Made by a program: the position numbers and the translations under genes. The notes under the pieces were generated by a model that saw only the letters and a list, made by a program, of their open reading frames with translations, was not told the origin of the DNA and did no database searches. From a virus, in IMG/VR virus record IMGVR_UViG_3300025161_000004, positions 124,001 through 188,000 of that record: a DNA stretch of 64,000 nt; one strand, given 5' to 3'. This document shows positions 3,492-62,844 of the stretch, in pieces. The stretch's first letter is position 1; each line of letters begins with the position of its first letter.

Positions 3492-3569
3492 TTATCTCAA
3501 AATGGTCATATTTAAATTTTAGTTAAGAATTAAATTCTTACCTAACTCCGAGTAAACCTTTTGAGATAA
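3492..3569. repeat. 11-bp inverted repeat flanking the leader of the 987-residue gene
   Basis: TTATCTCAAAA at 3492-3502 and its exact reverse complement at 3559-3569. One arm abuts the start codon, the other overlaps the late promoter motif. A smaller hairpin (TAAGAAT/ATTCTTA, centred near 3532) lies inside. It could be an operator or an RNA structure. Confidence 0.45.
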
Positions 3570-3731
3570 ATACTTTTTAAAAAAAATATAAATTTGACTT
3601 GACTTTTTATATTCTACTACGTAGAATATAAAACACATAGAAAATAGACTGATTTTTTTAAATTTTTTTATCGAAAAAAAATGAGCAAAATAGTGCGCCT
3701 TAGACTTCGACATTACGATTTCACCGCACAT
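3519..3731 (-). CDS. Possible small early protein, hypothetical
   Basis: A 70-residue frame starting MCGEIVMSKSKAHYF, lysine- and phenylalanine-rich with a hydrophobic stretch near residues 28-40. Its only support is a host-type promoter upstream (3804-3834) and somewhat higher GC content at its 5' end than its surroundings. It overlaps the late promoter and inverted repeat of the next gene, and no family is recognisable. It may equally be non-coding or a structured RNA. Confidence 0.25.
   Translation of the reverse strand: MCGEIVMSKSKAHYFAHFFSIKKFKKISLFSMCFIFYVVEYKKSSQIYIFFKKYLSQKVYSELGKNLILN
3566..3574 (-). promoter_or_regulatory. Late promoter motif AGTATTTAT
   Basis: Matches the window-wide late motif and points toward the 987-residue gene, 76 bases upstream of its ATG. 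The long leader is unusual among these sites. Confidence 0.55.
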
Positions 3732-3803
3732 CCTCTTTTTATTTTTGTTTTATTTTTTTATTTTTTACAAAACTTTATTACGGTGCTTTCGCAAAGTTTT
3801 GGC

Positions 3804-3834
3804 GAAAGTTACAAAATTTTTTTGACATTTGCAA
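3804..3834 (-). promoter_or_regulatory. Host-type promoter, TTGC-N19-TAACTTTC
   Basis: On the minus strand TTGC (3831-3834) is followed after 19 bases by TAACTTTC (3804-3811), one mismatch from the Bacteroidota -7 box TAnnTTTG. It points into the gap downstream of the tape measure gene. Confidence 0.4.
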
Positions 3835-3865
3835 GTGATTTAGAAAAAAAAATTAATATTTTTTT

Positions 3866-6433
3866 TTATCCTCTACCTTTTTGGGCAGCTACTGTGACAT
3901 CTACGATTTGTCTCGATAATGCTGATGCCATAGTTCTACCATCAACATTAATTATCGTATTTACATTTAAAGCCACTTCTTTTCTGTCAAATTCAACTTT
4001 TAATGGTTTACTAAATAAATCAGATAATTGAGATATAAAATTATTATTAGAGACATCTGCTTCAGCAATAGTTTTGATTGCTTTAGCTGTTTCAATAAAG
4101 TTAGTATTATCACCTGCCATAACTGCAGCAATACCACTAAAAGCTGTACCAACCTTTTCAAGTGTTCCACTATATAATGCCATAACTGTTAATGCCGCAG
4201 TTAATGCAGTAACACCAATTATACCTGTAGTAGATAATAATGCCAATGATCCTGCTATTCCAGCAAATGCTAATGTTACTGCTTTCATTTTTTCAATAGA
4301 TATATTCTGCATTAGTTTTGTCATTCCATCAGCCATAAACCCAATACCAGCTGCAGCAATACCTATACCAGCACCAATCATTAATATTGCACCTCCAAAA
4401 CCAAGCATCGGTAATGCAGCAGAACTAGCAGCAAAACCGAGAGCAATTACTGCAACAGACAATACACCAAATCCAATACCTAAATAACTTACAACATCTT
4501 TTAACAGTGCCATTTGATCAACATTTAATTCTTTTATACTTTCAGCTAATCCAGAAATACCTTTTGCGGCTAACCATATACCAGCACCTAAAGCAACAAA
4601 AGCAGCACCCATTGCCAATATTGTTTTAGGATTAATTTTTTTCATTTCATTAGTTACATTCTCACTAATACCGCCACTTGGCATTTGTTTTATATTACCA
4701 CCAGCGATATCTTTCATTTTTCCTTTTGCTTTTTCTTTTACTTTTTCTTTCGCTGCTTCACCAACAGTGCTTTGAATTGTGCCAGTAATTTCTTTTTTTG
4801 AAAAATAAGAACCAATCATTTGAGCACTTGTTTTTATTGCAGAAAATGATTTGGTTGTTAAATCCCAAAACTTTTTTCCAGCAACAAATACAATACTAAG
4901 TGCTGCAACCCATTTCATAGCTGATTTACCCCAATCAGGAATAGAATCAAATATATCATTAATACCTTTTAGAATCGGAGAAATTGTATCAAGAACTGCA
5001 TTTATACCTCTTAACGAAGGTAATAATGCAGCTTTCAATCCCTCAACTGTCGCTGCTAATTGTTCATTAAATGTTTGTGCTGCTTTAGCTCTTTCCTCTA
5101 AAGAGGTTTTTTGGGATTTTAATCCCTCGATTTCAGCTTTACTTAATTTAGATAATTCCTTTTTTTGATCACCAATCATTACATAAAACTTACCTGTACC
5201 CTTTTCGAATTGAGCCATACCTTCAATTACACTTCTATCTTCAGGATTAAGTATACCACTACTAGACATTTGCCTGCGCATTTCCTGTATCTTAGCCATT
5301 TGAATTGCTTGTTCAGCAAGTTCCTCTGTTGACATACCAAGTGCTTCGGCAGCTTTTGCTAATATATCTCTCGATTGAGGTGATGCTAAATCAAATTCAA
5401 AGCCCTCAGAAGTTTTACGTAATGTTGCCATTCCTTTGGTCATTTCATTAATTGTTTGCATGAATTTTTTGGGATCATTACGTGATTCATATAGCATTTT
5501 AAATGGATCGGTTTTAGCGAATTCACCACCTAATACTTGTAATTTTGATGCTAAATCAACCGCCCCCTCAAGAGTTCTGGCTTTATCTGCAGCATTTAAA
5601 GTGCTTTCCATATTAATTTTAAATTTCTCAGAATACATTGCCATATCAGACATACCAGCAACCCCTGTTTTAAATCCATATGTTGCTAATCTCTTAAAAT
5701 TAGCATTCATAGATTTTAATATTTTATTACTATTAAGACCAAATTTTTCGGATGAATCAACAATATTTTGAACAGTTTTAGCAGTATCCTCTGCATTAGT
5801 ACCAACTAATTCAAATTTACCAATTAATTCTCCAGCACCTTGAACACCTAATGCAGTTCCTTTTGCTATTCTTGTTACAGCAATTGCAGCTTCTTTATAG
5901 AGTAAAGTTTGTCTACCAGTTAATTCAGAATAAGTTGTTTGAATTTCCGATAGTTCTTGGAGATTAGAACCAAGATATGCTAATTCTACTGCCGAATCTT
6001 CAAAATTTTTGCGTAATATATTTGCTTTATTACCTGATAAGCCTAAATTAAGTATTGTTTGTCTAATTGCCTTATCAGATTGCATTAGATATGTAAAATA
6101 GTTTCTAGCACTATTAACTATACCTTCCCTAATATTTTTTAAATTTTCTAATCCTTGTTTTTGTTTTTCTATTTCTTTTCTTTGTTGTCCATAAATTTTT
6201 AATAGATTTTCATTAGCCTTTAAAGTGTTTTCATCACCTTCAAGAATTTTAGATCTTAAATTTTGAATTTTTTTATTTATTTCACCGTAATCTTTATTAA
6301 GATCATTTAATCTTCTTTGTGTACTAAAAATACCTTTTTGTGTATCAAATATACTTAATAATGTTCTTTCTTCACCCTCAAGAAGCTGATTAATTTTTTC
6401 TTGTAGTTTTAATCTTTCATTATCGATTGCCAT
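3866..6433 (-). CDS. Tail tape measure protein
   Basis: An 855-residue protein with the usual tape measure architecture: an N-terminal coiled coil (about residues 1-110), a long alpha-helical body, and several hydrophobic Ala/Gly-rich segments between about 500 and 770 (for example TILAMGAAFVALGAGIWLAA and IGFGVLSVAVIALGFAAS) that may form a membrane channel on ejection. Tape measure length sets tail length. It lies downstream of the gp26-type/chaperone gene pair, as in other tailed phages, but has its own late promoter and is separated from that pair by a terminator hairpin. Start at ATG 6433 follows the promoter by about 20 bases. Confidence 0.88.
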   Translation of the reverse strand: MAIDNERLKLQEKINQLLEGEERTLLSIFDTQKGIFSTQRRLNDLNKDYGEINKKIQNLRSKILEGDENTLKANENLLKIYGQQRKEIEKQKQGLENLKNIREGIVNSARNYFTYLMQSDKAIRQTILNLGLSGNKANILRKNFEDSAVELAYLGSNLQELSEIQTTYSELTGRQTLLYKEAAIAVTRIAKGTALGVQGAGELIGKFELVGTNAEDTAKTVQNIVDSSEKFGLNSNKILKSMNANFKRLATYGFKTGVAGMSDMAMYSEKFKINMESTLNAADKARTLEGAVDLASKLQVLGGEFAKTDPFKMLYESRNDPKKFMQTINEMTKGMATLRKTSEGFEFDLASPQSRDILAKAAEALGMSTEELAEQAIQMAKIQEMRRQMSSSGILNPEDRSVIEGMAQFEKGTGKFYVMIGDQKKELSKLSKAEIEGLKSQKTSLEERAKAAQTFNEQLAATVEGLKAALLPSLRGINAVLDTISPILKGINDIFDSIPDWGKSAMKWVAALSIVFVAGKKFWDLTTKSFSAIKTSAQMIGSYFSKKEITGTIQSTVGEAAKEKVKEKAKGKMKDIAGGNIKQMPSGGISENVTNEMKKINPKTILAMGAAFVALGAGIWLAAKGISGLAESIKELNVDQMALLKDVVSYLGIGFGVLSVAVIALGFAASSAALPMLGFGGAILMIGAGIGIAAAGIGFMADGMTKLMQNISIEKMKAVTLAFAGIAGSLALLSTTGIIGVTALTAALTVMALYSGTLEKVGTAFSGIAAVMAGDNTNFIETAKAIKTIAEADVSNNNFISQLSDLFSKPLKVEFDRKEVALNVNTIINVDGRTMASALSRQIVDVTVAAQKGRG

Positions 6434-6454
6434 ATTAATTGCAAATTATTTCTA

Positions 6455-6462
6455 ATAAATAC
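6455..6462 (-). promoter_or_regulatory. Late promoter motif GTATTTAT
   Basis: Lies 21 bases upstream of the tape measure ATG and points toward it. Confidence 0.6.
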
Positions 6463-6472
6463 ACAATAAGCA

Positions 6473-6498: not shown

Positions 6499-6500
6499 AT

Positions 6501-6695: not shown

Positions 6696-6712
6696 TTTTT
6701 TATATTCTCCAG

Positions 6713-7663
6713 CTAAAGATTTGGGAAAAAAAAATCTACTCCCATTACTATGGGTGCTTTAAATGTATTACCTGCAGGTGATGTAAATTGATAGTTCATA
6801 TCTACACCAGGGCTAACATCTAATATTTTTTTTCTTAGAGTTAATGAATCCAAAGCTGGCATAGCATCAACAAATCTACTAATATACATTTTATCTCTTT
6901 TACCATCTATCTCGGTTATTTGTGTTTTTAATCTAAGTGTATTTAATTCATTATATTCCTGATTATATGCTTCTTTCATTGCGTCAGCTTTTTTTATTAC
7001 TTCATCAATTTCTCTTGAATTTAATAATCTAAATTTTACAATCTTTTTTCTCATGGGTAATTCTATTGTAAACTCACCATTTTCATCAGGAAATTCGGTT
7101 ATCTCTTTATTTTTTAATTTAGTTAAATCAATAGTTGCCTTAAATTGTTTTCCAGTAAATGGATCGGTGACATTCACATCATAATCCTTACCATATGATG
7201 ATGCTCTTAGAAAAATTAGAATAGCATCCTTATCTCCAACTAATAGATCGCCCACATTAACGTTAGGTGTCTTAATTTTGCGTTTAAGAATCACATCAAG
7301 TACAGTACCATTTTCTATAAGTGCTGGGGTTGTTAAAATATCTTCATCTTTCGATGTAAGATATTCAACCATTACTTCATCTAATCTATTTTTATAAAAT
7401 AAACCCTTTGATGGTAATTTAACAGTATCAACACCAACAATAAGATCGGGATCATTTTCAACACTTATTCTTTTTATATGTTCATCAAAGTTATTATCGA
7501 GTTTAGGAATTTGAGTTTGTGCTGTACTGAATTGATTTTCAGGAATTCCCTTTTGGGATAATGTTACGTTTTCGGTTTTAGTTTTATATGCTGCATTAGC
7601 TTCTTCTTTTTTTGCGTAATAATTTCTAAGCGATTCATTTAGTAATGACGATTCTTGATTCAT
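6713..7663 (-). CDS. gp26: T4 gp26-type baseplate hub / tail assembly chaperone protein
   Basis: A 316-residue protein. Residues about 80-240 fit the T4_baseplate (gp26) family: VKLPSKGLFYKN, an LTSKDEDILTTPALIENGTVLDVILKRKI block, a GDKDAILIFLRASSYG block, and a C-terminal INSREID-like helical part (here LLNSREIDEV). The first 80 residues are polar and probably flexible. The coding end carries a T9 run that can shift ribosomes by -1 into the following 64-residue frame. The family is related to tail tube chaperones, and its position before the tape measure supports that role. Confidence 0.78.
   Translation of the reverse strand: MNQESSLLNESLRNYYAKKEEANAAYKTKTENVTLSQKGIPENQFSTAQTQIPKLDNNFDEHIKRISVENDPDLIVGVDTVKLPSKGLFYKNRLDEVMVEYLTSKDEDILTTPALIENGTVLDVILKRKIKTPNVNVGDLLVGDKDAILIFLRASSYGKDYDVNVTDPFTGKQFKATIDLTKLKNKEITEFPDENGEFTIELPMRKKIVKFRLLNSREIDEVIKKADAMKEAYNQEYNELNTLRLKTQITEIDGKRDKMYISRFVDAMPALDSLTLRKKILDVSPGVDMNYQFTSPAGNTFKAPIVMGVDFFFPNL
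6726..6734 (-). promoter_or_regulatory. Candidate programmed -1 frameshift site (T9 run)
   Basis: The minus-strand reads GAT TTT TTT TTC CCA in the zero frame, ending at TAG 6713-6715. Slipping back one base on T TTT TTT gives an open frame through TTT CCC AAA TCT to the 64-residue extension. Position and geometry match tail chaperone frameshifts. Confidence 0.65.
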
Positions 7664-7706: not shown

Positions 7707-7715
7707 TATAAATAG
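7707..7715 (-). promoter_or_regulatory. Late promoter motif CTATTTATA
   Basis: Points toward the gp26-type gene, 43 bases upstream of its ATG at 7663. Confidence 0.5.
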
Positions 7716-7765
7716 TTGTATAAAAAAAAAGTTATAAAAAAATTCAAGATTTTTAATTAAAAATT

Positions 7766-12048: not shown

Positions 12049-12870
12049 ATGAGAAAGAAAAAGGCTATTAAAAATGTAATTGTAGAGACATCAAGACCAA
12101 CACCTATAGAAAATACGGACGATACAATTAATAAAAATTATTTTGGTGAGAGAGAAGAGAAGGCATTAATTGACTATATCAATAGTGATTCTCCAGATGA
12201 AAGACAATTCATTTATAATACTATTCTAAAAAAGCCATTTCAAAAAATGGTTGAATCAATTTTAAGAAAATATCCTATTCATATAGGTAACTATGATATA
12301 AAAGAAATCGAAATGAATGGGTTGTCTCATCTTATTGAGAATATGGTTAAATTTAACCCAAATAAACTTAATAAAATGGGTCAAAAGGTGAGAGCATTTA
12401 GTTATTGTCAAACTATTGTTCGAAATTATTTTAAAGATCATGGTAGAAAAAGTTATAAAGAGAAAAAAACAATCCTTAGTTTTGATAACTATTCAGAAGA
12501 AATCCTTCATAGAGAGGAATATCTATATGAAATAGATAAAAATGAACATGATGAGTTACAATTATTGATCAATAATGTAATAGCTAAAATAAGAGAAAAA
12601 ATTGATACTGATAAGTCATTAAAAAAAAATGAAATTATTGTTGGAGATGCAATAGTGAATGTATTAGAAAATTGGCATGTATTGTTTTTAGAAGAGACCA
12701 AAGAAGGTAAATTCAACAAAAAAATTACAAATAACTATCAAAAAAATAAGATACTTTTATTTTTAAAAGAGCAAACGGGTTTATCCACAAAAGAAATACG
12801 ATTATCGATGAAATCATTCAAGGATATTTATTTTATTGAAAAAGCCATGTTCTATGGTAATGATGATTAA
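12049..12870 (+). CDS. gp55: Late-transcription sigma factor, T4 gp55-like
   Basis: About 273 residues; ATG 12049 is preferred to the GTG one codon upstream. Residues about 115-145 (KVRAFSYCQTIVRNYFKDHGRKSYK) match sigma region 2 as found in T4 gp55-type factors, which direct RNA polymerase to late promoters; an NGLSHLIENMVKFNP segment before it also fits. The C-terminal half is helical (KIREKIDTDKSL..., GLSTKEIRLSMKSF) and may act as region 4-like or clamp-binding tail. It immediately precedes a late operon with a strong late motif and is the likely reader of the (A/G)(G/C)TATTTATA motifs in this window. Confidence 0.82.
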   Translation: MRKKKAIKNVIVETSRPTPIENTDDTINKNYFGEREEKALIDYINSDSPDERQFIYNTILKKPFQKMVESILRKYPIHIGNYDIKEIEMNGLSHLIENMVKFNPNKLNKMGQKVRAFSYCQTIVRNYFKDHGRKSYKEKKTILSFDNYSEEILHREEYLYEIDKNEHDELQLLINNVIAKIREKIDTDKSLKKNEIIVGDAIVNVLENWHVLFLEETKEGKFNKKITNNYQKNKILLFLKEQTGLSTKEIRLSMKSFKDIYFIEKAMFYGNDD

Positions 12871-12885: not shown

Positions 12886-12894
12886 GTATTTATT
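12886..12894 (+). promoter_or_regulatory. Late promoter motif GTATTTATT
   Basis: Fifteen bases before ATG 12910, at the start of the plus-strand structural operon. Its position supports ATG 12910 over the upstream TTG codons. Confidence 0.6.
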
Positions 12895-12909: not shown

Positions 12910-13278
12910 ATGCCTAGAATTAAAAGAAAACAAATTAAATTTGATGAGGAAAGTGCGAACAATTTACTTCAGGAAATTTATAATGACTCGCATAATATTA
13001 GAGCAAAAATTACTATGCTTTTTAGAAAATGGGAAAAATATATTGACGACGAATCTAAAATTGCAGTATTAGGCGAACAAATAGTGAAACTTATTCAAGC
13101 AGAGGCAAAAAATCAAGACCAAAAAATACTTCTTTTAAAGTTCCTAAAAGAAGTCGCATATAAAGACGTTTCTAATAAAGAAAATGGGCAGGATGATTCT
13201 ACTAGTGGTGTAATATCAAATGAGAGAAGAAATGCGCTTTTAAATTTGGTAAAAAATGAATTAGAAGCTAAAAAATAA
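12910..13278 (+). CDS. Hypothetical helical protein, first gene of late operon
   Basis: A 122-residue, largely helical and charged protein (MPRIKRKQIKFDEESANNLLQEIY...). The ATG at 12910 is chosen because the late promoter motif ends 15 bases before it; the TTG codons upstream would fall too close. The stop overlaps the next start (TAATG). No family is recognised; its size and basic N-terminus would fit a small terminase or DNA-binding accessory protein, but nothing here proves that. Confidence 0.75.
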   Translation: MPRIKRKQIKFDEESANNLLQEIYNDSHNIRAKITMLFRKWEKYIDDESKIAVLGEQIVKLIQAEAKNQDQKILLLKFLKEVAYKDVSNKENGQDDSTSGVISNERRNALLNLVKNELEAKK

Positions 13279-17464: not shown

Positions 17465-17953
17465 TTAATAGTTTAAGATACATCTCCAAGGCTGTACAGT
17501 AAATGACACCATTTGCACAGCGTCAGAATCCATAGAGTTGTTACCAAAATCAACACTCGTAATCATGCATTGCTCCAAAAACCATTTTTCTACTTGAACT
17601 CCAGTAGGGTCAAGTGCTTTAATTATGAGATTTTTCTTATATCCAGCAGCATAACCCATACGACCAGTTAATGATTCTGCATGTAGACGAACCCATTCCA
17701 TAATTTGTGTTGACGTAGAAGGGCCTATCGTATCAATTAATTTAATATCAATTGTTTCCCATTTATATTTACCTGCAACATAGTTGGTTTCATTAATAAA
17801 AGGAATTTCAACTGCATTTATTGTCATAGAAGGTCTTTTAACCTCTTGTATTTTCCATTCTTCAATACCTAATTCAGTAGGGAACTCAAGAAAGAATCTA
17901 TTCTCTCTTTTAGGTTCATAATCGAAAGGTATACCACGGATAAGTTCTGCCAT
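17465..17953 (-). CDS. gp19: Tail tube protein, T4 gp19-like
   Basis: A 162-residue protein of the contractile tail tube family: FDYEPKRENRFFLEFP at residues 10-25, VKRPSMTINAVEIPF, YVAGKYKWETIDIKLID, and a C-terminal ITSVDFGNNSMDSDAVQMVSFTVQPW segment, in the usual order. These polymerise into the inner tube. It follows the sheath gene, as in T4 (18 then 19), but has its own late promoter, and a terminator lies between the two genes, allowing different expression levels. Confidence 0.9.
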   Translation of the reverse strand: MAELIRGIPFDYEPKRENRFFLEFPTELGIEEWKIQEVKRPSMTINAVEIPFINETNYVAGKYKWETIDIKLIDTIGPSTSTQIMEWVRLHAESLTGRMGYAAGYKKNLIIKALDPTGVQVEKWFLEQCMITSVDFGNNSMDSDAVQMVSFTVQPWRCILNY

Positions 17954-18009: not shown

Positions 18010-18019
18010 TATAAATACT
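18010..18019 (-). promoter_or_regulatory. Late promoter motif AGTATTTATA
   Basis: Points toward the tail tube gene, 56 bases upstream of its ATG. Confidence 0.6.
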
Positions 18020-20864: not shown

Positions 20865-20874
20865 TATAAATACT
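20865..20874 (-). promoter_or_regulatory. Late promoter motif AGTATTTATA
   Basis: Points toward the sheath gene, with a leader of about 65 bases. Confidence 0.6.
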
Positions 20875-20909: not shown

Positions 20910-20920
20910 AGTATTTATAA
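20910..20920 (+). promoter_or_regulatory. Late promoter motif AGTATTTATAA
   Basis: Points toward the 694-residue gene, 21 bases before its ATG. Divergent to the sheath motif 35 bases away. Confidence 0.6.
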
Positions 20921-23637: not shown

Positions 23638-23646
23638 CTATTTATA
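23638..23646 (+). promoter_or_regulatory. Late promoter motif CTATTTATA
   Basis: Twenty-two bases before the ATG at 23669. Confidence 0.55.
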
Positions 23647-25565: not shown

Positions 25566-25574
25566 GTATTTATA
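25566..25574 (+). promoter_or_regulatory. Late promoter motif GTATTTATA
   Basis: Fifteen bases before the ATG at 25590, just after the preceding stop. Confidence 0.6.
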
Positions 25575-27430: not shown

Positions 27431-27440
27431 TATAAATACT
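27431..27440 (-). promoter_or_regulatory. Late promoter motif AGTATTTATA
   Basis: Fourteen bases upstream of the gp15-like ATG at 27416, giving a very short leader. Confidence 0.6.
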
Positions 27441-33778: not shown

Positions 33779-33788
33779 TATAAATACT
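33779..33788 (-). promoter_or_regulatory. Late promoter motif AGTATTTATA
   Basis: Twenty-two bases upstream of the gp13-like ATG at 33757, and head-on to the host-type promoter on the other strand. Confidence 0.6.
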
Positions 33789-40254: not shown

Positions 40255-40264
40255 TATAAATAGT
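40255..40264 (-). promoter_or_regulatory. Late promoter motif ACTATTTATA
   Basis: Thirty bases upstream of the scaffold ATG at 40224; it probably also serves the capsid gene, which has no motif in its short upstream gap. Confidence 0.55.
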
Positions 40265-41024: not shown

Positions 41025-41456
41025 TTAGTTTTTTTTCTTTTTATAAATACTATTTTCTTCTATAATTTTATATCTAGTTATAGTAGAATTAGGCTTATAA
41101 ACTATTATTATTTCACAATTATCAAGACAACTAATAATATGTTGTGTTTTTGGTGGTATTAATATGGTATTAGGTGAATGAACTAGGGCATGGTCATCAT
41201 GTTCTGGGAAATTAATATTTAATAATCCTTTCACACAAATAATTCTTTTAAATTCATTGTTCACAATAATCCCAGTACTATAATCCTTATCTAATCTCAA
41301 TATTTGATACGTAGTCTCACCATTATCATTAATAAATATATTATCACCATAAATTAATTCTACTTCATTTTTTTCGGCTAACTGTTCAATTCTTTCGTTT
41401 ATGTATGAATTAATCTTTTTTAGTGCCCTTAATTTATCATAGTTGTCGAGAGTCAT
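41025..41456 (-). CDS. Cupin-like protein
   Basis: A 143-residue protein. Residues about 60-125 form a cupin-type barrel (RIICVKGLLNINFPEHDDHALVHSPNTILIPPKTQHIISCLDNCEIIIVYKP), with the HD/H metal-like residues partly present. Role unknown. It overlaps the upstream membrane protein gene by four bases and lies in the head gene cluster. A second cupin-like protein is encoded at 61664-62074. Confidence 0.6.
   Translation of the reverse strand: MTLDNYDKLRALKKINSYINERIEQLAEKNEVELIYGDNIFINDNGETTYQILRLDKDYSTGIIVNNEFKRIICVKGLLNINFPEHDDHALVHSPNTILIPPKTQHIISCLDNCEIIIVYKPNSTITRYKIIEENSIYKKKKN
41042..41051 (-). promoter_or_regulatory. Late promoter motif AGTATTTATA
   Basis: Inside the final codons of the cupin gene, 19 bases upstream of the protease ATG. 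Confidence 0.55.
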
Positions 41457-41962: not shown

Positions 41963-41984
41963 TTTTTATTACTATCTTTAAAAA

Positions 41985-41993
41985 TAAATACTG
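41985..41993 (-). promoter_or_regulatory. Late promoter motif AGTATTTAT
   Basis: Twenty-three bases upstream of the membrane coiled-coil protein ATG. Confidence 0.55.
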
Positions 41994-42038
41994 ATTTTTC
42001 ATGCATAAACTATATATTGAACGGTTTTAATAGGATTA

Positions 42039-42047
42039 CTATTTATA
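42039..42047 (+). promoter_or_regulatory. Late promoter motif CTATTTATA
   Basis: Fifteen bases before the ATG of the 1487-residue baseplate gene; divergent to the motif at 41985. Confidence 0.55.
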
Positions 42048-48183: not shown

Positions 48184-48208
48184 AAATTTTCCCTATATTT
48201 GATATATA

Positions 48209-48217
48209 ATAAATACT
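48209..48217 (-). promoter_or_regulatory. Late promoter motif AGTATTTAT
   Basis: Twenty-five bases upstream of the ATG at 48183. Confidence 0.55.
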
Positions 48218-50795: not shown

Positions 50796-50805
50796 TATAA
50801 ATACT
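50796..50805 (-). promoter_or_regulatory. Late promoter motif AGTATTTATA
   Basis: Twenty-three bases upstream of the portal ATG at 50773. Confidence 0.6.
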
Positions 50806-52907: not shown

Positions 52908-52917
52908 TATAAATACT
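52908..52917 (-). promoter_or_regulatory. Late promoter motif AGTATTTATA
   Basis: Seventeen bases upstream of the terminase ATG at 52891, directly after the terminator of the upstream gene. Confidence 0.6.
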
Positions 52918-52966: not shown

Positions 52967-53533
52967 TCAGAATTTTATTTGAAAAAAGTCTTCGTCTGTT
53001 GATTCTTTAGTATCATCAATTTCGATTTCTTCTTGTTCTTTTTTAAGAACTTTATCTACTTGTTTTTGTGGTTTTGTTTTCGATTTAGATTTTGTTGCGG
53101 TAAAGTTATTTCCTTTTAATATGACATCTCTTTCATATAGTAAATCTTTTACCTGATCAACCGTCATTCCATAATGAAAAACCAAAAGAGGCATATCACC
53201 ATATAATGCATTATATTCTGGGTCACTTTGATAGTCCTCATCTTCGTAAGCCAAAGCCTGTATCGAATGATACCCATGCATGTATGGTCTATCATCAGAC
53301 TCATGTAAACAGATCAATTGAAATAGATTTGTTTTAAGAGTATAAATTTCACTAATGGCATCTTCAGATGGGGGTTCGGCATTAGATGACGCTGGAATTT
53401 TAGTCCAACCCCATGCTTCGGCATCTACTGATTCGGGATCATCACTAAATATGAATTCATATATTCCTTCATCTTTAGAATTATATCCCACTTTATTTAC
53501 ATAGATAAGTTTCAGTTCTTTTTCTTTCTTCAT
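52967..53533 (-). CDS. Hypothetical protein
   Basis: A 188-residue acidic protein with a Lys/Glu-rich tail (residues 150-185). The central section (DRPYMHGYHSIQALAYEDEDYQSDPEYNALYG) is Tyr- and Asp-rich. No family recognised. Overlap of stop and start (TAATG) with the large acidic protein suggests coupled expression. It lies upstream of the terminase, where a small packaging factor could be placed, but no such domain is visible. Confidence 0.7.
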   Translation of the reverse strand: MKKEKELKLIYVNKVGYNSKDEGIYEFIFSDDPESVDAEAWGWTKIPASSNAEPPSEDAISEIYTLKTNLFQLICLHESDDRPYMHGYHSIQALAYEDEDYQSDPEYNALYGDMPLLVFHYGMTVDQVKDLLYERDVILKGNNFTATKSKSKTKPQKQVDKVLKKEQEEIEIDDTKESTDEDFFQIKF

Positions 53534-56013
53534 TATTTAGTTCTAAACCTACTTAAATTTACTTTTGGTTTATCTTGATCTTGTCCAGATTGAGATTTTG
53601 CAGTGGCAATTTGATTTTGAATTGTGGCTAATATTGATTTTGGATTAATAGGCTGTTCACCAGCCTTAACTGCTGAAGCATTTAACTTAGCAATTAGTTG
53701 ACCTAATTCAATAGCCATTTTTTCAATATCATCAATTATATCATTTTTTGCACCAACATGATATGATTTAACAATTTCATCACCAGCAGCTTTAATTACG
53801 TTAGCCGCACTTTGAACCTTTTGTTCAACTTCACTGTATGCTTTTTGTATTGCGCCAGATACCATAGAACCTATATTTTTACCAACACCAGATACCATAG
53901 AACCTATATTTTTACCAGCACCTAACAAACCACTAAGTGAAATTTCATTCAACTCAGCCTCTGTTAATTTACTTAATTCTTCATCTATCATTTTTTCAAT
54001 TAAAATTGCTGTAGCTGTTTTCTTACCTTCCGTTAAAACTGGTTTTCTAATCCCTAATTTTTCCTCAATTTTAATTTTAATGTATTTTTTTAATTTATCT
54101 TTTTTGTCGTCATCTTTTTCATCTTCATCTTTTTTGTCGTCATCTTTTTCATCTTCATCTTTTTTGTCGTCATCGTTTACGTCATCATATTCTTCATCAT
54201 CGAATTCATCATCATTTGTTTCCGATTTAGTCGTTAAAATATGACCTGTAGGTGTAAAATTTATTTCTTTTTTCTCTTTTGACTCCTTTTCGTCATCATC
54301 TTCATTTGTGTCGGATATGTTATCTTTAACATCTGGCATTGGTTCAACAGAACCAAATTTAGCTAATTGGTTTTCACCTATTTCACCCACAACAGCCTTT
54401 AACTTTTTAATGAAGTCACCATGACCAACATCTTCAAGATATTTTTGAATTTCTGGTGTCAAATATATTGCAACAGTTTTATAATCACCATCATTTTCAC
54501 CGTCAGCATGTGCACTAGCCCAATTGCTAACTACACTACCAATTTCATCTTCAGTTGCTTCCTCAAGATTATTTGGGTCATATCCTCTTTTTCTTAAATA
54601 ATTATTAAATCCAGTATCAGCATCAAAAGCAGCTTTTGCTTTTTTCTTATCCTCAGGAGTAATCCCTAACTCATCATCAAGATCACTCATTTCATCGTCC
54701 AAATCGTCATCATCAAAACCATTTTCTTTTAGATTTGCTACATGACTATTAATTGCCTCATTTGCCTCATCATCTAATTCATATGTCTCATCATCAGTCA
54801 TATCCTTATCTTCTTTTTTATTTGTTTTTAGTATTTTATTTGCGATTTCTTTTCTTTTTTCAGGATCAAGTTCAGTTAATTTACTACTGAAAGATGAGAT
54901 AATTTGATTTAATAATGCTGCAGCTTTATCTGATGTTATTTCAGTACTTCTAACAGCATTATCTAATTTACCTGTTAATTTCTCAACTTTCTTTACATCG
55001 CTTTCTTTATCATCTACTTTATCATTCAAATCAACATCAGATTTTTTATCGGTTAAATCAACATCAGATTTTTTATCTGTTAAATCAACATCAGATTTTT
55101 TATCAACATTCAAATTAGGATTTGATTTAGATGTGCTATTAATATCTGATGTTGTTGTTTGTTTTTCAGTTGATGTTGAACTATTAATTACTTCATCGTT
55201 AGATACTTGACTTTCCACAGAAGCATCTGCTACCACTAAATCATCGAGTGCTTTAGCCGCAGCATCCAATTCTGCATCTACACTCTTATTATCTACTTCA
55301 TCATCCTCATTAATTTTAGAATCTGATGTTACAAGATCACTTGGTTGTCCATGACCCAAATTCGCTTTGGTTTTTGCATTTTTATCATTTATTGGTGCTT
55401 CTGGGGTTTCTTTTTCATTACTCTTATTTACTACAATGTCATCGTCTACAATTTGAGAATCAGCAGTAGTTAATATTTGAGATTCCTTCTTAATTGAAGA
55501 ATCTGTTTGTTCATGATCTTTATGATCTTTCTCAAGAGATCTAAGGTTTTTTTTAAATTTCTCTTCTGCTGACTTAGTTATTTTTTTCCTTCCCTCAGAA
55601 ATTCTATTTTTTAAGAACTCTTCAATTGACCCATCTATTTTAAGTTTGGTCGCTTCATTTAGTGAAACTTTTTTTTCTTCTGTTGTTTTTTCATCTCTTA
55701 AAGAGAATGCTTCATTTAAAGAAGCCATATAATATTCTCTTTGCTTTTCAGCTTTAGAGAGACTTTCATATTGATACTTTCTTTTATTTTCTATACCACC
55801 AATATATGCAAAGTCTGCGGCAGTAAGTTTATCACCTTGAACTTTTGAGGTTTTGATATAATAGTTATGATTTTCTTTGATAATACCTAATGCTGTACCA
55901 TCGTTTGCTCTCTTAAAATTAATAAGAGTCACGGAACTGAGAGGAGTAGAATTTGTTCTTGTTTCATCAATGGCAGATAGTTCTTTTAGTCTTTTATAAA
56001 AGTTTTCCTTCAT
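53533..56013 (-). CDS. Large acidic protein with tandem repeats, probably head-associated
   Basis: About 826 residues from ATG 56013 (a TTG three codons upstream is less likely). The N-terminal 120 residues form an ordered domain beginning MKENFYKRLKELSAIDE, with LKE|L and IDE|T protease-type sites. A very acidic, low-complexity middle follows, with DKKSDVDLT repeats, KKDEDEKDDD repeats, and near the C-terminus GKNIGSMVSG repeats and helices (ELSKLTEAELNEISLSG). It is a candidate internal head or core protein, as in T4-type phages. The charge could balance packaged DNA. Confidence 0.65.
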   Translation of the reverse strand: MKENFYKRLKELSAIDETRTNSTPLSSVTLINFKRANDGTALGIIKENHNYYIKTSKVQGDKLTAADFAYIGGIENKRKYQYESLSKAEKQREYYMASLNEAFSLRDEKTTEEKKVSLNEATKLKIDGSIEEFLKNRISEGRKKITKSAEEKFKKNLRSLEKDHKDHEQTDSSIKKESQILTTADSQIVDDDIVVNKSNEKETPEAPINDKNAKTKANLGHGQPSDLVTSDSKINEDDEVDNKSVDAELDAAAKALDDLVVADASVESQVSNDEVINSSTSTEKQTTTSDINSTSKSNPNLNVDKKSDVDLTDKKSDVDLTDKKSDVDLNDKVDDKESDVKKVEKLTGKLDNAVRSTEITSDKAAALLNQIISSFSSKLTELDPEKRKEIANKILKTNKKEDKDMTDDETYELDDEANEAINSHVANLKENGFDDDDLDDEMSDLDDELGITPEDKKKAKAAFDADTGFNNYLRKRGYDPNNLEEATEDEIGSVVSNWASAHADGENDGDYKTVAIYLTPEIQKYLEDVGHGDFIKKLKAVVGEIGENQLAKFGSVEPMPDVKDNISDTNEDDDEKESKEKKEINFTPTGHILTTKSETNDDEFDDEEYDDVNDDDKKDEDEKDDDKKDEDEKDDDKKDKLKKYIKIKIEEKLGIRKPVLTEGKKTATAILIEKMIDEELSKLTEAELNEISLSGLLGAGKNIGSMVSGVGKNIGSMVSGAIQKAYSEVEQKVQSAANVIKAAGDEIVKSYHVGAKNDIIDDIEKMAIELGQLIAKLNASAVKAGEQPINPKSILATIQNQIATAKSQSGQDQDKPKVNLSRFRTK
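53855..53917. repeat. 33-bp tandem repeat, two copies
   Basis: Two copies with period 33 inside the large acidic protein gene, coding for GKNIGSMVSG(V/A). Confidence 0.75.
54100..54174. repeat. 30-bp tandem repeat, about two and a half copies
   Basis: Period 30, coding for the acidic KKDEDEKDDD unit. Confidence 0.75.
55028..55104. repeat. 27-bp tandem repeat, three copies
   Basis: Units start at 55028, 55055 and 55082, coding for DKKSDVDLT or near variants. Confidence 0.8.
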
Positions 56014-56054: not shown

Positions 56055-56064
56055 TATAAATACT
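56055..56064 (-). promoter_or_regulatory. Late promoter motif AGTATTTATA
   Basis: Forty-two bases upstream of ATG 56013, at the start of the acidic protein unit. Confidence 0.6.
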
Positions 56065-56626: not shown

Positions 56627-57839
56627 TTTTAAAGTCAATTTTTTGCATTTTAACTTTTGGTACTTGTATTTTACAAACTGAAATGTCTTGTTTACCTGCC
56701 CTTTTTTGTGGTTTAATCTTACCACCCTCTTGTCTAATTCTCATACTCAAATAATCATAATTTGGCATTTCCTCAATTTTATCAATCATAACAGTACCTG
56801 TTATAACAACATTTACGTATTGAAATTGTTTGTAGTCTTCGATATTTTCAAGTGGTGGATCTTGAGCTTTTGATTTCCAAAATTTTGAATCGATATTATT
56901 GTTTTTATATGCTTGAATGTATTTAGGGTTCACCTCATAAGGACTTTTAGGTCCGCTTGTTCCATCACCATTTGTTCCATATGGATCTATTGACACCATA
57001 TCATCAGTAATTTCGGTAACATTATCACCACACCCTCCGAAACTAGTTTTCATACCAACCATTATATTTTTCAGAGCATTAGCTCTTTCAGTTGAAAGCT
57101 CCAACCAAGTTTTTCCTTCAGATTCTCTAGTATTTCTTAAGGTGCTTGAGGATGATACAATTTCTATTTTATCTATCTTGGTGTAACTATCCATTATTTC
57201 TTGTAGTTTATTTTTTAATTCTTCTATATTTTTTAATTCAGAACTATTAAACGCAAAATAACTACCAACAGGTGTTGAAGAGGTGGTATATACTGTATCA
57301 ACACTAACCTCCCTAACAATTTTTTTTCCGATATTCACCATTTTACCACCAATTTGATCTGGTGATAATTTACTATTAATTATCAGTCCAAAATCAATTT
57401 TTGAAATATCTGAAAGTTTATTTATTCTATCTCTAATTGCTTTTAATACTTCGATTTTTTTTTCTTGTGGTAATTGATTATATCTACTGAGAACTACTCT
57501 ATCGAATTTCTCGGCATGTTTTATAAATGCTTTTTCAATTTGATTTAGGTCAATTTTTTTTCCGGAAACAATTTGTTCTGCTTTTGTTATATTTTCTTGC
57601 GGAACACCAGCTGCTCGCAATTCTTGTGCGCTAACATTATTAGCCATTAATCCTGCAATAACACCAACAGTTAATAGCCCTCTCCTTAAATAATCTTTAA
57701 GGGTGTCAGATATTGCTTCATCGATTTGTTCAGACTCATTTAATGTATTTTTCAAATATTCTATCTTTTCTAAAATAGAATTCACTACTTTTCTTTCAAG
57801 TAGTGCATTGTATTGCGATTCTTTAATTATTATTTTCAT
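56613..57839 (-). CDS. Membrane/OmpA-domain protein, probably head-packaged
   Basis: A 408-residue protein. It begins MKIIIKESQYNALLERKV and contains IDE|A (Glu41) as a gp21-type site. A hydrophobic segment follows (GLLTVGVIAGLMANNVSAQEL, residues about 54-74). Residues about 195-260 and 290-355 contain an OmpA-like domain (YFAFNSSELKNIEELKNKLQEIM, LSTERANALKNIMVG). The OmpA domain binds peptidoglycan in other proteins. It may be packaged and act during entry (inference). Its start overlaps the end of the nucleotidyltransferase gene. Confidence 0.65.
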   Translation of the reverse strand: MKIIIKESQYNALLERKVVNSILEKIEYLKNTLNESEQIDEAISDTLKDYLRRGLLTVGVIAGLMANNVSAQELRAAGVPQENITKAEQIVSGKKIDLNQIEKAFIKHAEKFDRVVLSRYNQLPQEKKIEVLKAIRDRINKLSDISKIDFGLIINSKLSPDQIGGKMVNIGKKIVREVSVDTVYTTSSTPVGSYFAFNSSELKNIEELKNKLQEIMDSYTKIDKIEIVSSSSTLRNTRESEGKTWLELSTERANALKNIMVGMKTSFGGCGDNVTEITDDMVSIDPYGTNGDGTSGPKSPYEVNPKYIQAYKNNNIDSKFWKSKAQDPPLENIEDYKQFQYVNVVITGTVMIDKIEEMPNYDYLSMRIRQEGGKIKPQKRAGKQDISVCKIQVPKVKMQKIDFKKRGF

Positions 57840-59412
57840 ATTCTAAAGATAATTTTTTATTTAAACTATTAAATAATGCATTCTTTATTTTTTTTAAGTA
57901 ACCATTATTTCTTAATATTTTAAATACGAGATTTTCTGTGGAAAATTCACCTTCGCTTTCTAATCCAGCTTTCCTATAATTTTTTAATTTTTCTTTTAAT
58001 GTGTTTAGTAAGCTAATTTTAATATCATTATCATCTAAACTTTCAAGATGATCAATTAGATTCATTAATGAAGCCGATTTTAGTTGTATGTCTGATGTGT
58101 CGATACCTATAACTTGCTTAATTGGTTTTTCAATCCATTGATCTTTTATTAGTGAATATACACCAGTACTATTTACATCTTCATTAATATCTTCAACATA
58201 AAGTTCAACATCATATCCTTTTACCTTTGCTTTTATTTTTGTTTCCCACAAACTCTTTTTCGTTTTGAATAATTCTCTAAGGGTATCTTCATCGGCATCT
58301 AATTCATTGAAATCAATTACAATATGAACATCTAAATCAGAAAAATCAGTCCAAGTGTAATTAGCCAAACTTCCAGTAAATCTAATATCTTTGATTGGTA
58401 ACTTTTCTAAGTTAAGAAACTTTATAAATTCTATAGCATTTTTTAGTAGAGCTGCCCTTACTTGAGGTTGTAATTTGTTTTCGTTTTTCCAAATCTTAGG
58501 ATTTAGTTGGTCTTTTACTTTGAGATATTCAACCCCAATACTTTTAGGGTCGACAATTTCATTCAAAATATCACTAACCTTTTTAGTTGACCAAAATTTA
58601 CATGACCAATATCTTGGTGTAGTTTTATCTGTGGCAGTATCACAGTTATGTCTTGCTCTAAATGATTTTCTTCTTTCTGGATCATCTCTTTTGATTTCCA
58701 TATTTGGATCACCAAAATTAACTTTCTTTATATTACCAGTTTTTTTATCTCTAACATAAACTTTATATTTTTTAACATCACCTCTCATTGGTTTATTGAG
58801 TGGTTTATTTTTTTTACTCTCAAAAACCTTAAGTGATGTTTGGTTTCTATTTTCCGATGCCCATTTTAAATAGTCTGGATTATTTTTTGCAAAGTCCATT
58901 TCCATTTTTTGCATTTTTTTTTCAGCATCTTTTATCCATTCAAAACTACCATAGTATTTGTATATTTCATTAGCTAATACTTCACTATCTGACGAGATTT
59001 TTTTATATTCTTTTTCTGAAAAATCTCCACCTTTTGACTGATTATACTTCATTATATTTTGTTGAAATTCAAGATCAATCCATTTATCAATCAAAGTATT
59101 TGTTTCTTCTGACACATCATAATCCTCAACAATATCATATAATTCATATTTTTCATCTAAATAATTCGATAAATACTCATTAATAAACTTACCGTATCTA
59201 AACAATTTTTTAGATGCCTCTTCATCAAAGTCCAAAATTTTATATGAAGTAAATAAATTAGATAGTGGTATACTTACTGGTAATGCTGCTTGTTTTCTCA
59301 GAGATTTAAATTTAATTTCCCTATTCTCACCTATCATCTCTTTAAGAAGAATTTCAGCCTCATTAAGTATTTCACCGATATTATTTAATCTACTACTTTG
59401 ATTTTTTTGCAT
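57823..59412 (-). CDS. Nucleotidyltransferase-domain protein, possibly injected
   Basis: A 529-residue protein from ATG 59412 (an ATG at 59421 would lie next to the late motif). The C-terminal domain, about residues 345-410, is of the minimal nucleotidyltransferase type: RFTGSLANYTWTDFSDLDVHIVID with GS and the DxD pair, then GYDVELYVED with a third acidic residue. A Cys/Trp-rich motif (RARHNCDTATDKTTPRYWSCKFW) lies in the middle; it is known to me from T4-like and other phage head proteins. Near the N-terminus IGE (14) and LNE|A (18) are protease-type sites. Confidence 0.7.
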   Translation of the reverse strand: MQKNQSSRLNNIGEILNEAEILLKEMIGENREIKFKSLRKQAALPVSIPLSNLFTSYKILDFDEEASKKLFRYGKFINEYLSNYLDEKYELYDIVEDYDVSEETNTLIDKWIDLEFQQNIMKYNQSKGGDFSEKEYKKISSDSEVLANEIYKYYGSFEWIKDAEKKMQKMEMDFAKNNPDYLKWASENRNQTSLKVFESKKNKPLNKPMRGDVKKYKVYVRDKKTGNIKKVNFGDPNMEIKRDDPERRKSFRARHNCDTATDKTTPRYWSCKFWSTKKVSDILNEIVDPKSIGVEYLKVKDQLNPKIWKNENKLQPQVRAALLKNAIEFIKFLNLEKLPIKDIRFTGSLANYTWTDFSDLDVHIVIDFNELDADEDTLRELFKTKKSLWETKIKAKVKGYDVELYVEDINEDVNSTGVYSLIKDQWIEKPIKQVIGIDTSDIQLKSASLMNLIDHLESLDDNDIKISLLNTLKEKLKNYRKAGLESEGEFSTENLVFKILRNNGYLKKIKNALFNSLNKKLSLEYENNN

Positions 59413-59425
59413 AAAACGCATTTTT

Positions 59426-59435
59426 TATAAATACT
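59426..59435 (-). promoter_or_regulatory. Late promoter motif AGTATTTATA
   Basis: Fourteen bases upstream of ATG 59412, favouring that start. Confidence 0.6.
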
Positions 59436-59450: not shown

Positions 59451-59460
59451 AGTATTTATG
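59451..59460 (+). promoter_or_regulatory. Late promoter motif AGTATTTATG
   Basis: Sixteen bases before ATG 59477, divergent to the motif at 59426. Confidence 0.6.
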
Positions 59461-59476
59461 TGAAACTAATATTTTA

Positions 59477-61453
59477 ATGGAATTAAAGTGTCTTAATGAT
59501 ATAATTCATAATGGTTTAGCGATTCACATTGATTTAACTAATTCAAAATCATGGGATCTCAATAATAAATTTACATTAATTAGTTTAAATCAATGGAAAA
59601 ATGCTAAATCGGATAACATATTTTTATATGATTTTGGTTTAACGGCATTTGATAATGGTAGAGTTTCTAATATGTATGATACTCTGTCACTAACTCCAAA
59701 CGATACCAAAGTTAAACTTTATAGAGTAGGTTATAACACTGAAACTGGTGGTACTTTCTATGATGGTTATGGTATAACTGGTGTGACAGAAAATGGATAT
59801 ATATATGGTTTAGAATTTACTGGTATTACTGCAAATACTACATTTACTGGCGATAGTTTTGTGGGTAGACATTTAAACCTTAATGGTGGTTATTTACAAG
59901 GATTTTTTAAATTATATAATTATAACTATGAGTTATTTCCATCAAGATTAAATGGCATTACAATTGAAACTGTTGTTAGAATTGATGAGAATTCATACTC
60001 TAATAATGGTATTTTGTTCATGATGGGAGCTAGATCAGAAGATAAATATAATGATCCATTTTCTGGTGAGACAATTCTTTTGTCCACCTATAAAACTAAA
60101 ACAGAAAAGAATGGAATTATTGAGTATCTTGATTCATATAATTCATATTCGGGAATAACTACTGGTGAAGCTAATTACTTAGCAGCATATAAAACTGGAA
60201 CTACGATACCTAATGGTGTTAAAAATTTGGATAATAAATATAATGAAATTTATATTAGACAGAAAAAAAATTCTATAAATGGTAATGTTATTGCTTTACA
60301 GTTAACTACAGATGGTTATCTTGGTTTTAAATATATCGATGACGATGGAATATTACATAACCAAATATCATCGAATAAAATTAGTACTGGTTGGACTATA
60401 ATCACATTAACATTTAAACCATATGAAATAATTACTAATCCAGATTTACTCGAATGTGCTGAAAAAAGAAAGGGAGATTTAGCTGTATATGTAAATGGTA
60501 GACTGTTCTGGAAAATTAAAGAGTTTGATGAATTCTATTTTAAAAATATTAAAAATCAAAAAGAAAAACAATTGGGTGTTCCATATAATATTTCTTGGGG
60601 TGGTGGTAGTTTTGGATTGAGACACTCATATCATTGGGATGTGAACAAGAGAATATTATATAATGGGAATGATCAGTCATATATTAACTCTAATTTTAAA
60701 TTAGATCTAAACCCATTAGTGGACTACTCGTGCATTACTACTACTGGAATGACTGGTACTTCAGCAACAACAGGAATACAACTTCTAATGAATGATACTC
60801 TATTCTATAGTATTGATATTTGTGATCCACAAATAGAACTACCAGTCACTGTATTGGAGATAAGAAATCTTACTGGAGTTACTCCGACTAAATCGAAATA
60901 TTATATTGAATTTATACCCTCATTTGAATTATTAAGTAATAGAGATTATGTTTTATCTGCTAAGATTTATGATACTGGAATATTCAGAAACACGAATAAC
61001 TCAACTCAATTACCAACAATGAATAAAATATCGTTAGTTGTTTATGGAACTACAGATATCAATGTACTTAATGAAGTGACTTATCGTGGTACAACCCCTA
61101 ATAAATGGTCTGATTTAAGTTTAAAGTTTAGATTAAAAGATAATACTGGTTTACAAACAATTTTTGTTGGGATATACATCGAATCAGATGAACCATTAGT
61201 AGATGGTTTTAGGTTATATATTGATGATTATACTTTAACGGGATCAGATAAATTATCAAAAGATTTATCCAAAAACGATTTACTAATAGAAAATAATTTT
61301 AGTAATTCATTTGTTGGTGGATTACAAAAATTAAGAATTTATGACTATGCATTTACATCGGAAGAAGCATTACATAATGCATATTGGGAATCAAAAAAGA
61401 ATCCAAATTTAAATTTAAATGTTGTTAAGGGAGGTAGAATAATATTTAGATAG
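59477..61453 (+). CDS. Putative adhesin / LamG-like virion protein
   Basis: A 658-residue, Gly/Asn/Thr/Tyr-rich beta protein. Residues about 160-310 (LNGITIETVVRIDEN, NGILFMMGARSED, WTIITLTFKPYEI, GDLAVYVNGRLFWKIKEFDEF) and the RIYDYAFTSEEALHNAYWE end have the pattern of concanavalin/LamG domains, which bind glycans. It may be a tail fibre or receptor-binding protein. Late promoter; three bases before the next gene. Confidence 0.65.
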   Translation: MELKCLNDIIHNGLAIHIDLTNSKSWDLNNKFTLISLNQWKNAKSDNIFLYDFGLTAFDNGRVSNMYDTLSLTPNDTKVKLYRVGYNTETGGTFYDGYGITGVTENGYIYGLEFTGITANTTFTGDSFVGRHLNLNGGYLQGFFKLYNYNYELFPSRLNGITIETVVRIDENSYSNNGILFMMGARSEDKYNDPFSGETILLSTYKTKTEKNGIIEYLDSYNSYSGITTGEANYLAAYKTGTTIPNGVKNLDNKYNEIYIRQKKNSINGNVIALQLTTDGYLGFKYIDDDGILHNQISSNKISTGWTIITLTFKPYEIITNPDLLECAEKRKGDLAVYVNGRLFWKIKEFDEFYFKNIKNQKEKQLGVPYNISWGGGSFGLRHSYHWDVNKRILYNGNDQSYINSNFKLDLNPLVDYSCITTTGMTGTSATTGIQLLMNDTLFYSIDICDPQIELPVTVLEIRNLTGVTPTKSKYYIEFIPSFELLSNRDYVLSAKIYDTGIFRNTNNSTQLPTMNKISLVVYGTTDINVLNEVTYRGTTPNKWSDLSLKFRLKDNTGLQTIFVGIYIESDEPLVDGFRLYIDDYTLTGSDKLSKDLSKNDLLIENNFSNSFVGGLQKLRIYDYAFTSEEALHNAYWESKKNPNLNLNVVKGGRIIFR

Positions 61454-61455
61454 TT

Positions 61456-61662: not shown

Positions 61663-61663
61663 T

Positions 61664-62074
61664 TTATTGAGCAAATACCACTAAAAATGTATCTTCAAGA
61701 AATTCTATTGAATGTGTTGTGTATTTTTTTACCTTAAAGGTTTCAAATGAATTTATTATGGTAGATGAATTTAAAAAATTTATCTTCATTTTTCCAAATA
61801 AACAAATGTATGATTCGTTAAATTCATGAACATGATTATCAATAACAGTGTCTTTTTTTATGTAGTAAACTTTTACCCTATCATCTTTATTTGGCATGTC
61901 ATTAATACATGTAAGATGAACTCCCTTATCCTTTAAAAAATCAAGTATTTTATGATATTCAGTCTCATGAATAATACTAAGTGCATTATTAATTTGATTG
62001 ATTAATAACGCTTCCTTTTTTTTTGATATTAATCTATTAGCCTTATCGATTGCTATCTCGAAAGACGGACTCAT
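61664..62074 (-). CDS. Cupin-like protein
   Basis: A 136-residue protein. Residues about 85-135 (IDNHVHEFNESYICLFGKMKINFLNSSTIINSFETFKVKKYTTHSIEFLEDTFLVVFAQ) have a cupin pattern with HxH-like and later H residues. No substrate is evident. It is converging with the zinc-ribbon gene and has tandem late promoters. Confidence 0.6.
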   Translation of the reverse strand: MSPSFEIAIDKANRLISKKKEALLINQINNALSIIHETEYHKILDFLKDKGVHLTCINDMPNKDDRVKVYYIKKDTVIDNHVHEFNESYICLFGKMKINFLNSSTIINSFETFKVKKYTTHSIEFLEDTFLVVFAQ

Positions 62075-62090
62075 TTTTTTTGTATTTTTT

Positions 62091-62108
62091 TATAAATACT
62101 ATAAATAC
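62091..62108 (-). promoter_or_regulatory. Tandem late promoter motifs
   Basis: AGTATTTATA (62091-62100) and GTATTTAT (62101-62108) in tandem, 17 bases upstream of the cupin ATG at 62074. Confidence 0.55.
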
Positions 62109-62144
62109 GTCAAAAAATGAAAAAAATCATACATGATAATTACA

Positions 62145-62795
62145 TCAACCATAATTTATTAGTAATTTCTTAATAAATTTTCTTTTAAATATTGGTTTTA
62201 TCGTGAATTCGAAATTTTCTTTGGGTGGTGTTTCTACTATAAAGTAGTTTTTTTGATATCTATTTTTGAAAAAAGTATTCTCGGATATATCAGTTAATTC
62301 TAATACAAATAATTCATCTGAAGTAAGTTTTTTATTTAAAAAGTATTCATAATAATATTTTTTAATATTATCTATAATTACAATATAACCTGAGTATAAT
62401 GAAAAGTTGCTAACAATATTTCCATCAATATTGATTTTTGATTCAATTTCATCATATAATTTAGAATACGATAAAAATAAACTATCGAATATTTCCTTTC
62501 CAAATTCTGCTGTTTCTACTATGTCATTTAATGATGAATCATTTATTAATGATCTATATATAATTTTTTGTTCGATTACATCTAAACCTATAATTTCTTT
62601 TTTTCCATTTTCGAAAACATAAATATTATCTAAAAAAATGTCGATATAATTTTTATTAGCAATAATATCAATAAAATCAGGATAAAGTAATCTATGTCTG
62701 AATCGCTCTCTTTTCTCTTTTTCATAAGCAAGCAACAAATACTTCTTGTATTCAAAATCAATTGGGTTGTTTATAAGCCAACCTTTATTTAACAT
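62145..62795 (-). CDS. Hypothetical protein
   Basis: A 216-residue Lys/Tyr/Phe-rich protein, MLNKGWLINNPIDFEYKKY..., with no family recognised. Mixed alpha/beta with an acidic central helix. It has a late promoter and could be a baseplate or head accessory. Confidence 0.7.
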   Translation of the reverse strand: MLNKGWLINNPIDFEYKKYLLLAYEKEKRERFRHRLLYPDFIDIIANKNYIDIFLDNIYVFENGKKEIIGLDVIEQKIIYRSLINDSSLNDIVETAEFGKEIFDSLFLSYSKLYDEIESKINIDGNIVSNFSLYSGYIVIIDNIKKYYYEYFLNKKLTSDELFVLELTDISENTFFKNRYQKNYFIVETPPKENFEFTIKPIFKRKFIKKLLINYG

Positions 62796-62809
62796 AGATA
62801 TAATTTAAA

Positions 62810-62820
62810 TATAAATACTT
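62810..62820 (-). promoter_or_regulatory. Late promoter motif AAGTATTTATA
   Basis: Fifteen bases upstream of the ATG at 62795. Confidence 0.6.
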
Positions 62821-62835
62821 GTTTGATATTTTTAA

Positions 62836-62844
62836 AGTATTTAT
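62836..62844 (+). promoter_or_regulatory. Late promoter motif AGTATTTAT
   Basis: Twelve bases before ATG 62856; shows that an in-frame TTG at 62823 is not the start. Confidence 0.55.

Follow-up and report, generated by a model that had tools for sequence, protein, structure and literature searches.

The late box of T4 has been thought to be nearly constant among T4-like phages, and the sliding clamp gp45 is required for T4 late transcription. T4 late promoters carry the sequence TATAAATA and are served by the factors gp55, gp33 and gp45 (PMC2988020, PMC7892883). In the T4 numbering the box T is at -13, and the pockets of gp55 for A(-12), A(-9) and A(-8) use Y97, N13/H95 and T99, respectively (PMC7892883); near -32, T4 late promoters show no sequence conservation (PMC2988020). 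A T4-type late box altered at -13/-12 (a/gC) has been published for Aeromonas phage Aeh1, as far as it is described through PMC2988020, whereas the alteration reported here lies at -10/-9. It was found in a T4-like lineage represented by the IMG/VR virus record IMGVR_UViG_3300025161_000004 (246,768 bp; hereafter G000). The stretch analyzed, called the window below, comprises 64,000 bases (124,001-188,000) of this record, and boxes with the core TATTTATA lie upstream of its structural and other genes. These boxes are very probably promoters, and probably the late promoters of the lineage, read by a diverged sigma factor of the gp55 type. They are best explained as belonging to a variant of the T4 late-promoter system that is specific to the lineage.

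The window contains 19 exact copies of RSTATTTATW, compared with 6.6 expected from dinucleotide shuffles, and none of 100 shuffles attained 19. All 19 sites lie 3-71 nt upstream of the called start of an open reading frame (ORF) and are directed toward it. The initial annotation had listed 26 gene-pointing sites, and the looser form [G/C]TATTTA[T/C] indeed yields 26 that are followed within 80 nt by a start in the same direction, from 3566 to 62844; a few of these are weak, since 3566 falls within an ORF and 48246 and 59427 are 4-5 nt away from the ATG as called. By itself, the octamer TATTTATA shows no enrichment within the window (29 versus 23.6 expected); the signal resides in position and direction, not in the octamer count. 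Across the whole genome, GTATTTAT is found upstream of 50 of the 287 called starts, compared with 2.4 +/- 1.5 (maximum 7) in second-order Markov simulations. A genome-wide count in both orientations, which had been proposed together with the initial list, bears out the direction: 50 sites have the same direction as the gene and 15 the opposite one (p=1.6e-5), the latter number taking in sites that serve a divergent neighbor. Gene-directed TATTTATA precedes 46 starts and gene-directed TATAAATA only 14, showing that the core box differs from the T4 type. De novo, GTATTTAT is the top gene-directed 8-mer of the genome, and the identical script recovers TATAAATA from T4. The distance between box and ATG is mostly 11-26 nt, with a range of about 4 to 72 nt.

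Alignment of the conserved sites gave the full consensus A[G/C]TATTTATA-NN-AAA. The base immediately before the box (box position -1) is G or C in 98-99% of the conserved sites, and A stands at +11 in 97% and at +12 in 95%; neither the preceding G/C nor the AAA is seen at TATTTAT copies away from starts. There is no -35-like hexamer at the late boxes. Instead, a sharp peak at a single position 19 nt upstream of the box, at about -32 (C 40%, G 1%; flanks about 10% each), is followed by an A/T run. This peak is present in most of the independent promoter groups and is weak in G000 alone (C 18%, G 2%). The extended consensus, with its flanking G/C, AAA and -32 C, is newly described here from sequence alignment.

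The motif had been introduced as the reverse complement of the T4 box, which is correct as letters but not as biology. When both are read toward the gene, TATTTATA matches TATAAATA at six of eight positions, and the differences are confined to the central bases -10 and -9, where AA of T4 is replaced by TT. The asymmetry of the flanking G/C, AAA and -32 C shows that the box has the usual orientation, toward the gene; a literal reversed box was rejected on the same grounds, and the reverse-complement relation is a coincidence. The lineage and T4 share an 8-bp, -10-like box before late structural genes on both strands, with A(-12), A(-8) and the outer TAT...ATA positions in common, an AT-rich segment downstream, and a phage protein resembling sigma region 2. 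They differ in the TT at -10/-9, in the near-obligatory G/C before the box, in the AAA at about -3 to -1, and in the C (never G) near -32.

The boxes occur where promoters are needed, as seen from the frequencies by start context: 24 of 55 divergent starts, 22 of 92 starts behind a same-direction gap of >60 nt, but only five of 96 behind a gap of <=20 nt. Six of the 58 genome sites are directly behind an intrinsic terminator, compared with 16 of 3000 random positions (0.5%). By gene classes assigned mainly from PHROGs matches, boxes precede nine of 14 identified structural, packaging or lysis genes and one of 24 metabolic genes (p=1e-4, genome-wide). The statement in the initial annotation that only structural or unknown genes carry the box is accurate within the window, but elsewhere in the genome one tRNA nucleotidyltransferase-like gene has a site.

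Conservation was counted over 65 related, non-redundant loci at the starts of orthologous genes. The box is retained in 33 of 35 orthologs of ORF 38809-40224, the opening gene of the operon of the major capsid protein gp23 (ACTATTTATA at 40255..40264, minus strand), in 55 of 61 of the prohead protease gene gp21 at 40316-41023 (AGTATTTATA, 41042..41051, minus), in 44 of 46 of ORF 42063-46526 (1487 aa; ACTATTTATA, 42038..42047, plus), in 36 of 40 of ORF 47389-48183 (AGTATTTATT, 48208..48217, minus), in 40 of 44 of ORF 32639-33757 (AGTATTTATA, 33779..33788, minus) and in 22 of 26 of ORF 41453-41962 (AGTATTTATT, 41983..41992, minus). In contrast, it is found at none of 60 operon-internal gp23 genes and none of 41 helicase genes. 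Since the median protein identities in the box-bearing ortholog groups are only 30-68%, this conservation exceeds what mere relatedness would give.

The presumed late sigma is the product of the gene at 12049..12870 (plus strand), a gp55-like protein of 273 aa resembling sigma region 2, for which orthologs, structure matches and profile-profile comparison speak. An ortholog exists in 26 of the 32 clade records searched, and relatives exist in Flavobacterium phage immuto, Microcystis phage Mel-JY01, LR756508 and Rhodothermus phage RM378; the last is the unannotated RM378p020 (L175:17032-17826; E=3e-10). When the profile of this family is compared with that of T4-type gp55, the two align colinearly across the sigma-2 region (E=0.011), and phrog_234, the late-sigma family of T4, is matched by the immuto relative (E=0.008). 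Named matches of the predicted structure in a viral structure library are mostly phage sigma factors, including gp55 of phiW-14. In alignments, the sigmas of phages with TATTTA boxes keep Y97, the residue stacking on A(-12), a base that is unchanged, but have replaced N13, the contact of the changed base -9, and carry Q, S or G in place of T99 (base -8). The residue changes appear to parallel the base changes, a correlation at low sequence identity and not a proof. About ten sigma-like proteins of the clade (L148-L157) have an insertion of approximately 30-45 residues just before the base-reading region, and a related 364-kb phage encodes a 118-aa frame (G003:C1:279636-279911) matching phrog_234 (E=0.002), possibly a second sigma-like protein. 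Directly downstream of the sigma gene is a gene for a 122-aa protein (12910..13278, plus), which has its own box (12886..12893, plus) and is syntenic after the sigma gene across the clade; it is a candidate gp33-like partner of the sigma.

One script for gene-directed boxes was applied to all phages compared. It returned TATAAATA for T4, Pelagibacter phage HTVC008M, P-SSM4 and Campylobacter phage CP81, and a TATTTA-type box for G000, its close relative G001, immuto, Mel-JY01 and RM378 (as TATTTAAA). HTVC008M, CP81 and the cyanophages likewise have a single gene-directed box upstream of starts, but it is of the T4 type and accompanied by a recognizable T4-type gp55, whereas immuto, Mel-JY01 and RM378 combine the TATTTA core with a related, unannotated sigma-like protein. 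The TATTTA boxes thus co-occur with the family of the 12049-12870 protein in five genomes, and TATAAATA with T4-type gp55 in four, so that box type tracks the phage sigma family. In immuto the TATTTA core precedes the late genes gp17, gp18, gp19, gp20 and hub, and the AAA is at the same offset as in G000 in both immuto and RM378. The base before the box differs, being [A/C] in immuto, A in Mel-JY01 and T, with TATTTAAA, in RM378; the -32 C signal is not seen in these three phages. The gene-directed RM378 box, TATTTAAA-NN-AAAA, has 22 starts for TATTTAAA versus four. We found no earlier report of a TATTTA late box, including for immuto, Mel-JY01 and RM378, in a literature search that left most subscription papers outside.

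Several observations weigh against the late-promoter reading with a gp55-type sigma. The relation of the 12049-12870 protein to T4 gp55 is remote: the hhalign probability is only 4%, searches of G000 for phrog_234 and directly for the gp55 family gave no match, and the predicted structure of the protein is only moderate (pLDDT 71), with weak matches in the PDB that are led by SigI6 and include none below E=0.001. Searching PDB sequences with the profile of the sigma likewise gave no real match. LR756508 is an exception in having a related sigma and no clear TATTTA box. The clamp gp45, part of the T4 late system, was undetected in G000 (no match to PF02916, and to phrog_223 only a weak match inside the polymerase frame), and gp33 was not identified, no model search for gp33 having been made. 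Finally, several known structural genes are without a box of their own; they may be operon-internal. The claim of a gp55-type sigma gene at 12049-12870 therefore stands as to the coordinates and a lineage-wide sigma-2-like family, while the link to gp55 is remote; likewise, conservation, gene class, operon position and the lineage-wide protein all favor late promoters read by such a sigma, with the same reservation.

The remoteness of the gp55 link and the case of LR756508 leave some room for late promoters read by another factor, such as a different sigma of the phage or a host sigma in modified form. We consider this unlikely, given the co-occurrence of box and sigma types in the genomes compared and the predominance of sigma factors among the named structure matches; the 12049-12870 protein is probably the sigma of the late boxes. 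Equally unlikely is a distinct system, in which a two-domain gp55-like sigma reads the -32 C through its C-terminal domain and replaces gp33 and the gp45 clamp. The lineage sigma does have an extra C-terminal domain compared with T4 gp55 (185 aa), and its C-terminal 108 aa are confidently predicted as a separate fold by themselves (pLDDT 85). However, a role of this domain as a sigma-4-like reader of -32 is unsupported, with no match to sigma-4 or to a solved fold and no consistent Pfam family. If such a system existed, late promoters would be two-part and without a clamp tie to replication.

Bacteroidota sigma A promoters have the form TTG-N19/20-TAnnTTTG. The boxes could in principle be ordinary host promoters, with the AT-rich, -10-like box at a fitting distance serving the Bacteroidota housekeeping sigma as its -7 element, and phages of the lineage do carry host-type promoters. 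These exist separately, however, before other genes of the same phages, and differ from the late box in being two-part, with a 19-20 bp spacer and another core. G000 has 17 in the same direction as the gene versus six opposite, and Mel-JY01 has 19 versus three, without overlap with the late-box genes. The late boxes lack the -33 TTG and -7 TAnnTTTG columns and shun DNA-metabolism genes. In immuto the two kinds are cleanly separated: the late boxes, [AC]TATTTATA, lack a -33 element, and TTG-N-TTCNTATATTTAG promoters stand upstream of other genes, most of them small. The host-promoter explanation was rejected on these grounds, and we regard it as very improbable. The strongly conserved immuto sequence AGTTGC-N-TTCNTATATTTAGGTAT (MW353176; 21 sites, e.g. 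before the genes at 62184 and 70994) probably represents early host-sigma promoters. The 19 Mel-JY01 starts (PP395634; e.g. 68793, 129081, 143155) are of textbook form, nearly all TTGC-N20-TAnnTTTG, and this phage may in truth infect a member of the Bacteroidota present in the culture and not a cyanobacterium. In G000, GTATAATA is upstream of 10 starts versus two opposite, at non-late genes including 7795 and 16305 in the window, and is possibly another promoter class.

Slightly less probable still is action in RNA, as a translation-initiation or processing element of the leader. The ATG follows most sites by 11-26 nt, and the enriched upstream k-mers include no Shine-Dalgarno sequence; but the spacing varies from about 4 to 72 nt, the conserved C at -32 is well upstream of the box, and tightly packed downstream genes, which also need translation, rarely or never have the box (five of 96 such starts, none of 60 gp23 genes). 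On these grounds the explanation was rejected. An artefact of AT-rich composition (genome G+C content 28.6%; bare octamer unenriched in the window) or of start calling is refuted by conservation across the 65 loci, amid diverged flanks, and is at odds with the shuffles and simulations, the direction and the near-obligatory G/C.

Under the late-promoter reading, A[G/C]TATTTATA would be a -10-like element spanning approximately -13 to -6. The 12049-12870 sigma, on host RNA polymerase, would melt this element and read its non-template strand. We infer use late in infection, with transcription starting about 5-7 nt downstream of the box, at or just past the conserved AAA, and leaders of roughly 5-20 nt. 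Early genes would probably be served by host-type TTG-N20-TAnnTTTG promoters.

The remaining sites of the window are distributed over both strands. On the minus strand, a box at 6455..6462, directly after an intrinsic terminator, is 21 nt from the ATG of ORF 3866-6433 (855 aa), and ACTATTTATA precedes the baseplate hub gene 6713-7663 (7707..7716). Minus-strand AGTATTTATA is found before the gp19-like tail tube gene 17465-17953 (18010..18019, behind a terminator), ORF 26649-27416 (27431..27440), the gp20-like portal gene 48674-50773 (50796..50805), the large terminase gene gp17 50840-52891 (52908..52917) and ORF 53533-56013 (56055..56064). Two adjacent boxes (62091-62100 and 62101-62108; together 62091..62108, minus) precede ORF 61664-62074. 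Plus-strand boxes stand before ORF 23669-24799 (CTATTTAT, 23638..23645) and ORF 25590-26345 (25566..25573). Three pairs are divergent: AGTATTTATA before the tail sheath gene gp18 18082-20793 (20865..20874, minus) and before ORF 20942-23026 (20910..20919, plus); AGTATTTATA at ORF 57823-59421 (59426..59435, minus), where the called ATG is 4 nt off and a later ATG is the likely start, and GTATTTAT before ORF 59477-61453 (59452..59459, plus); and AGTATTTATA before ORF 62145-62795 (62810..62819, minus) and AGTATTTATT before ORF 62856-63344 (62836..62845, plus).

The window proteins form a T4-like myovirus set, with gp23-type capsid, gp18-type sheath, tail tube, gp21 protease and large terminase; the portal was recognized through homology to T4. 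The sheath has its nearest named relatives in Mel-JY01, an uncultured 484-kb phage and immuto; at 903 aa it far exceeds T4 gp18 in length, and its similarity to other sheaths is concentrated in the C-terminal third. At least 80 IMG/VR loci encode a capsid protein 70-88% identical to that of G000, and several records of the lineage exceed 300 kb. Only two GTDB contigs with a G000-type capsid were found, in bins labeled Bacteroidota and Bacteroidales. Because of these bins and of the TTG-N-TAnnTTTG promoters in the genome, the best inference is that G000 probably has a Bacteroidota host, and its lineage probably infects mostly Bacteroidota.

The classic T4 late switch would thus have a second 'dialect', A-G/C-TATTTATA-NN-AAA in place of TATAAATA. 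Across a large lineage, for which 80 capsid relatives from IMG/VR were retained, the box is consistently altered and accompanied by a diverged sigma, whose contact residues differ where the base has changed; this offers a concrete test of joint change in a minimal sigma and its promoters. The box gives an annotation rule for late operons in Bacteroidota phages, and its pairing with the sigma family points to unannotated sigma genes, including RM378p020.

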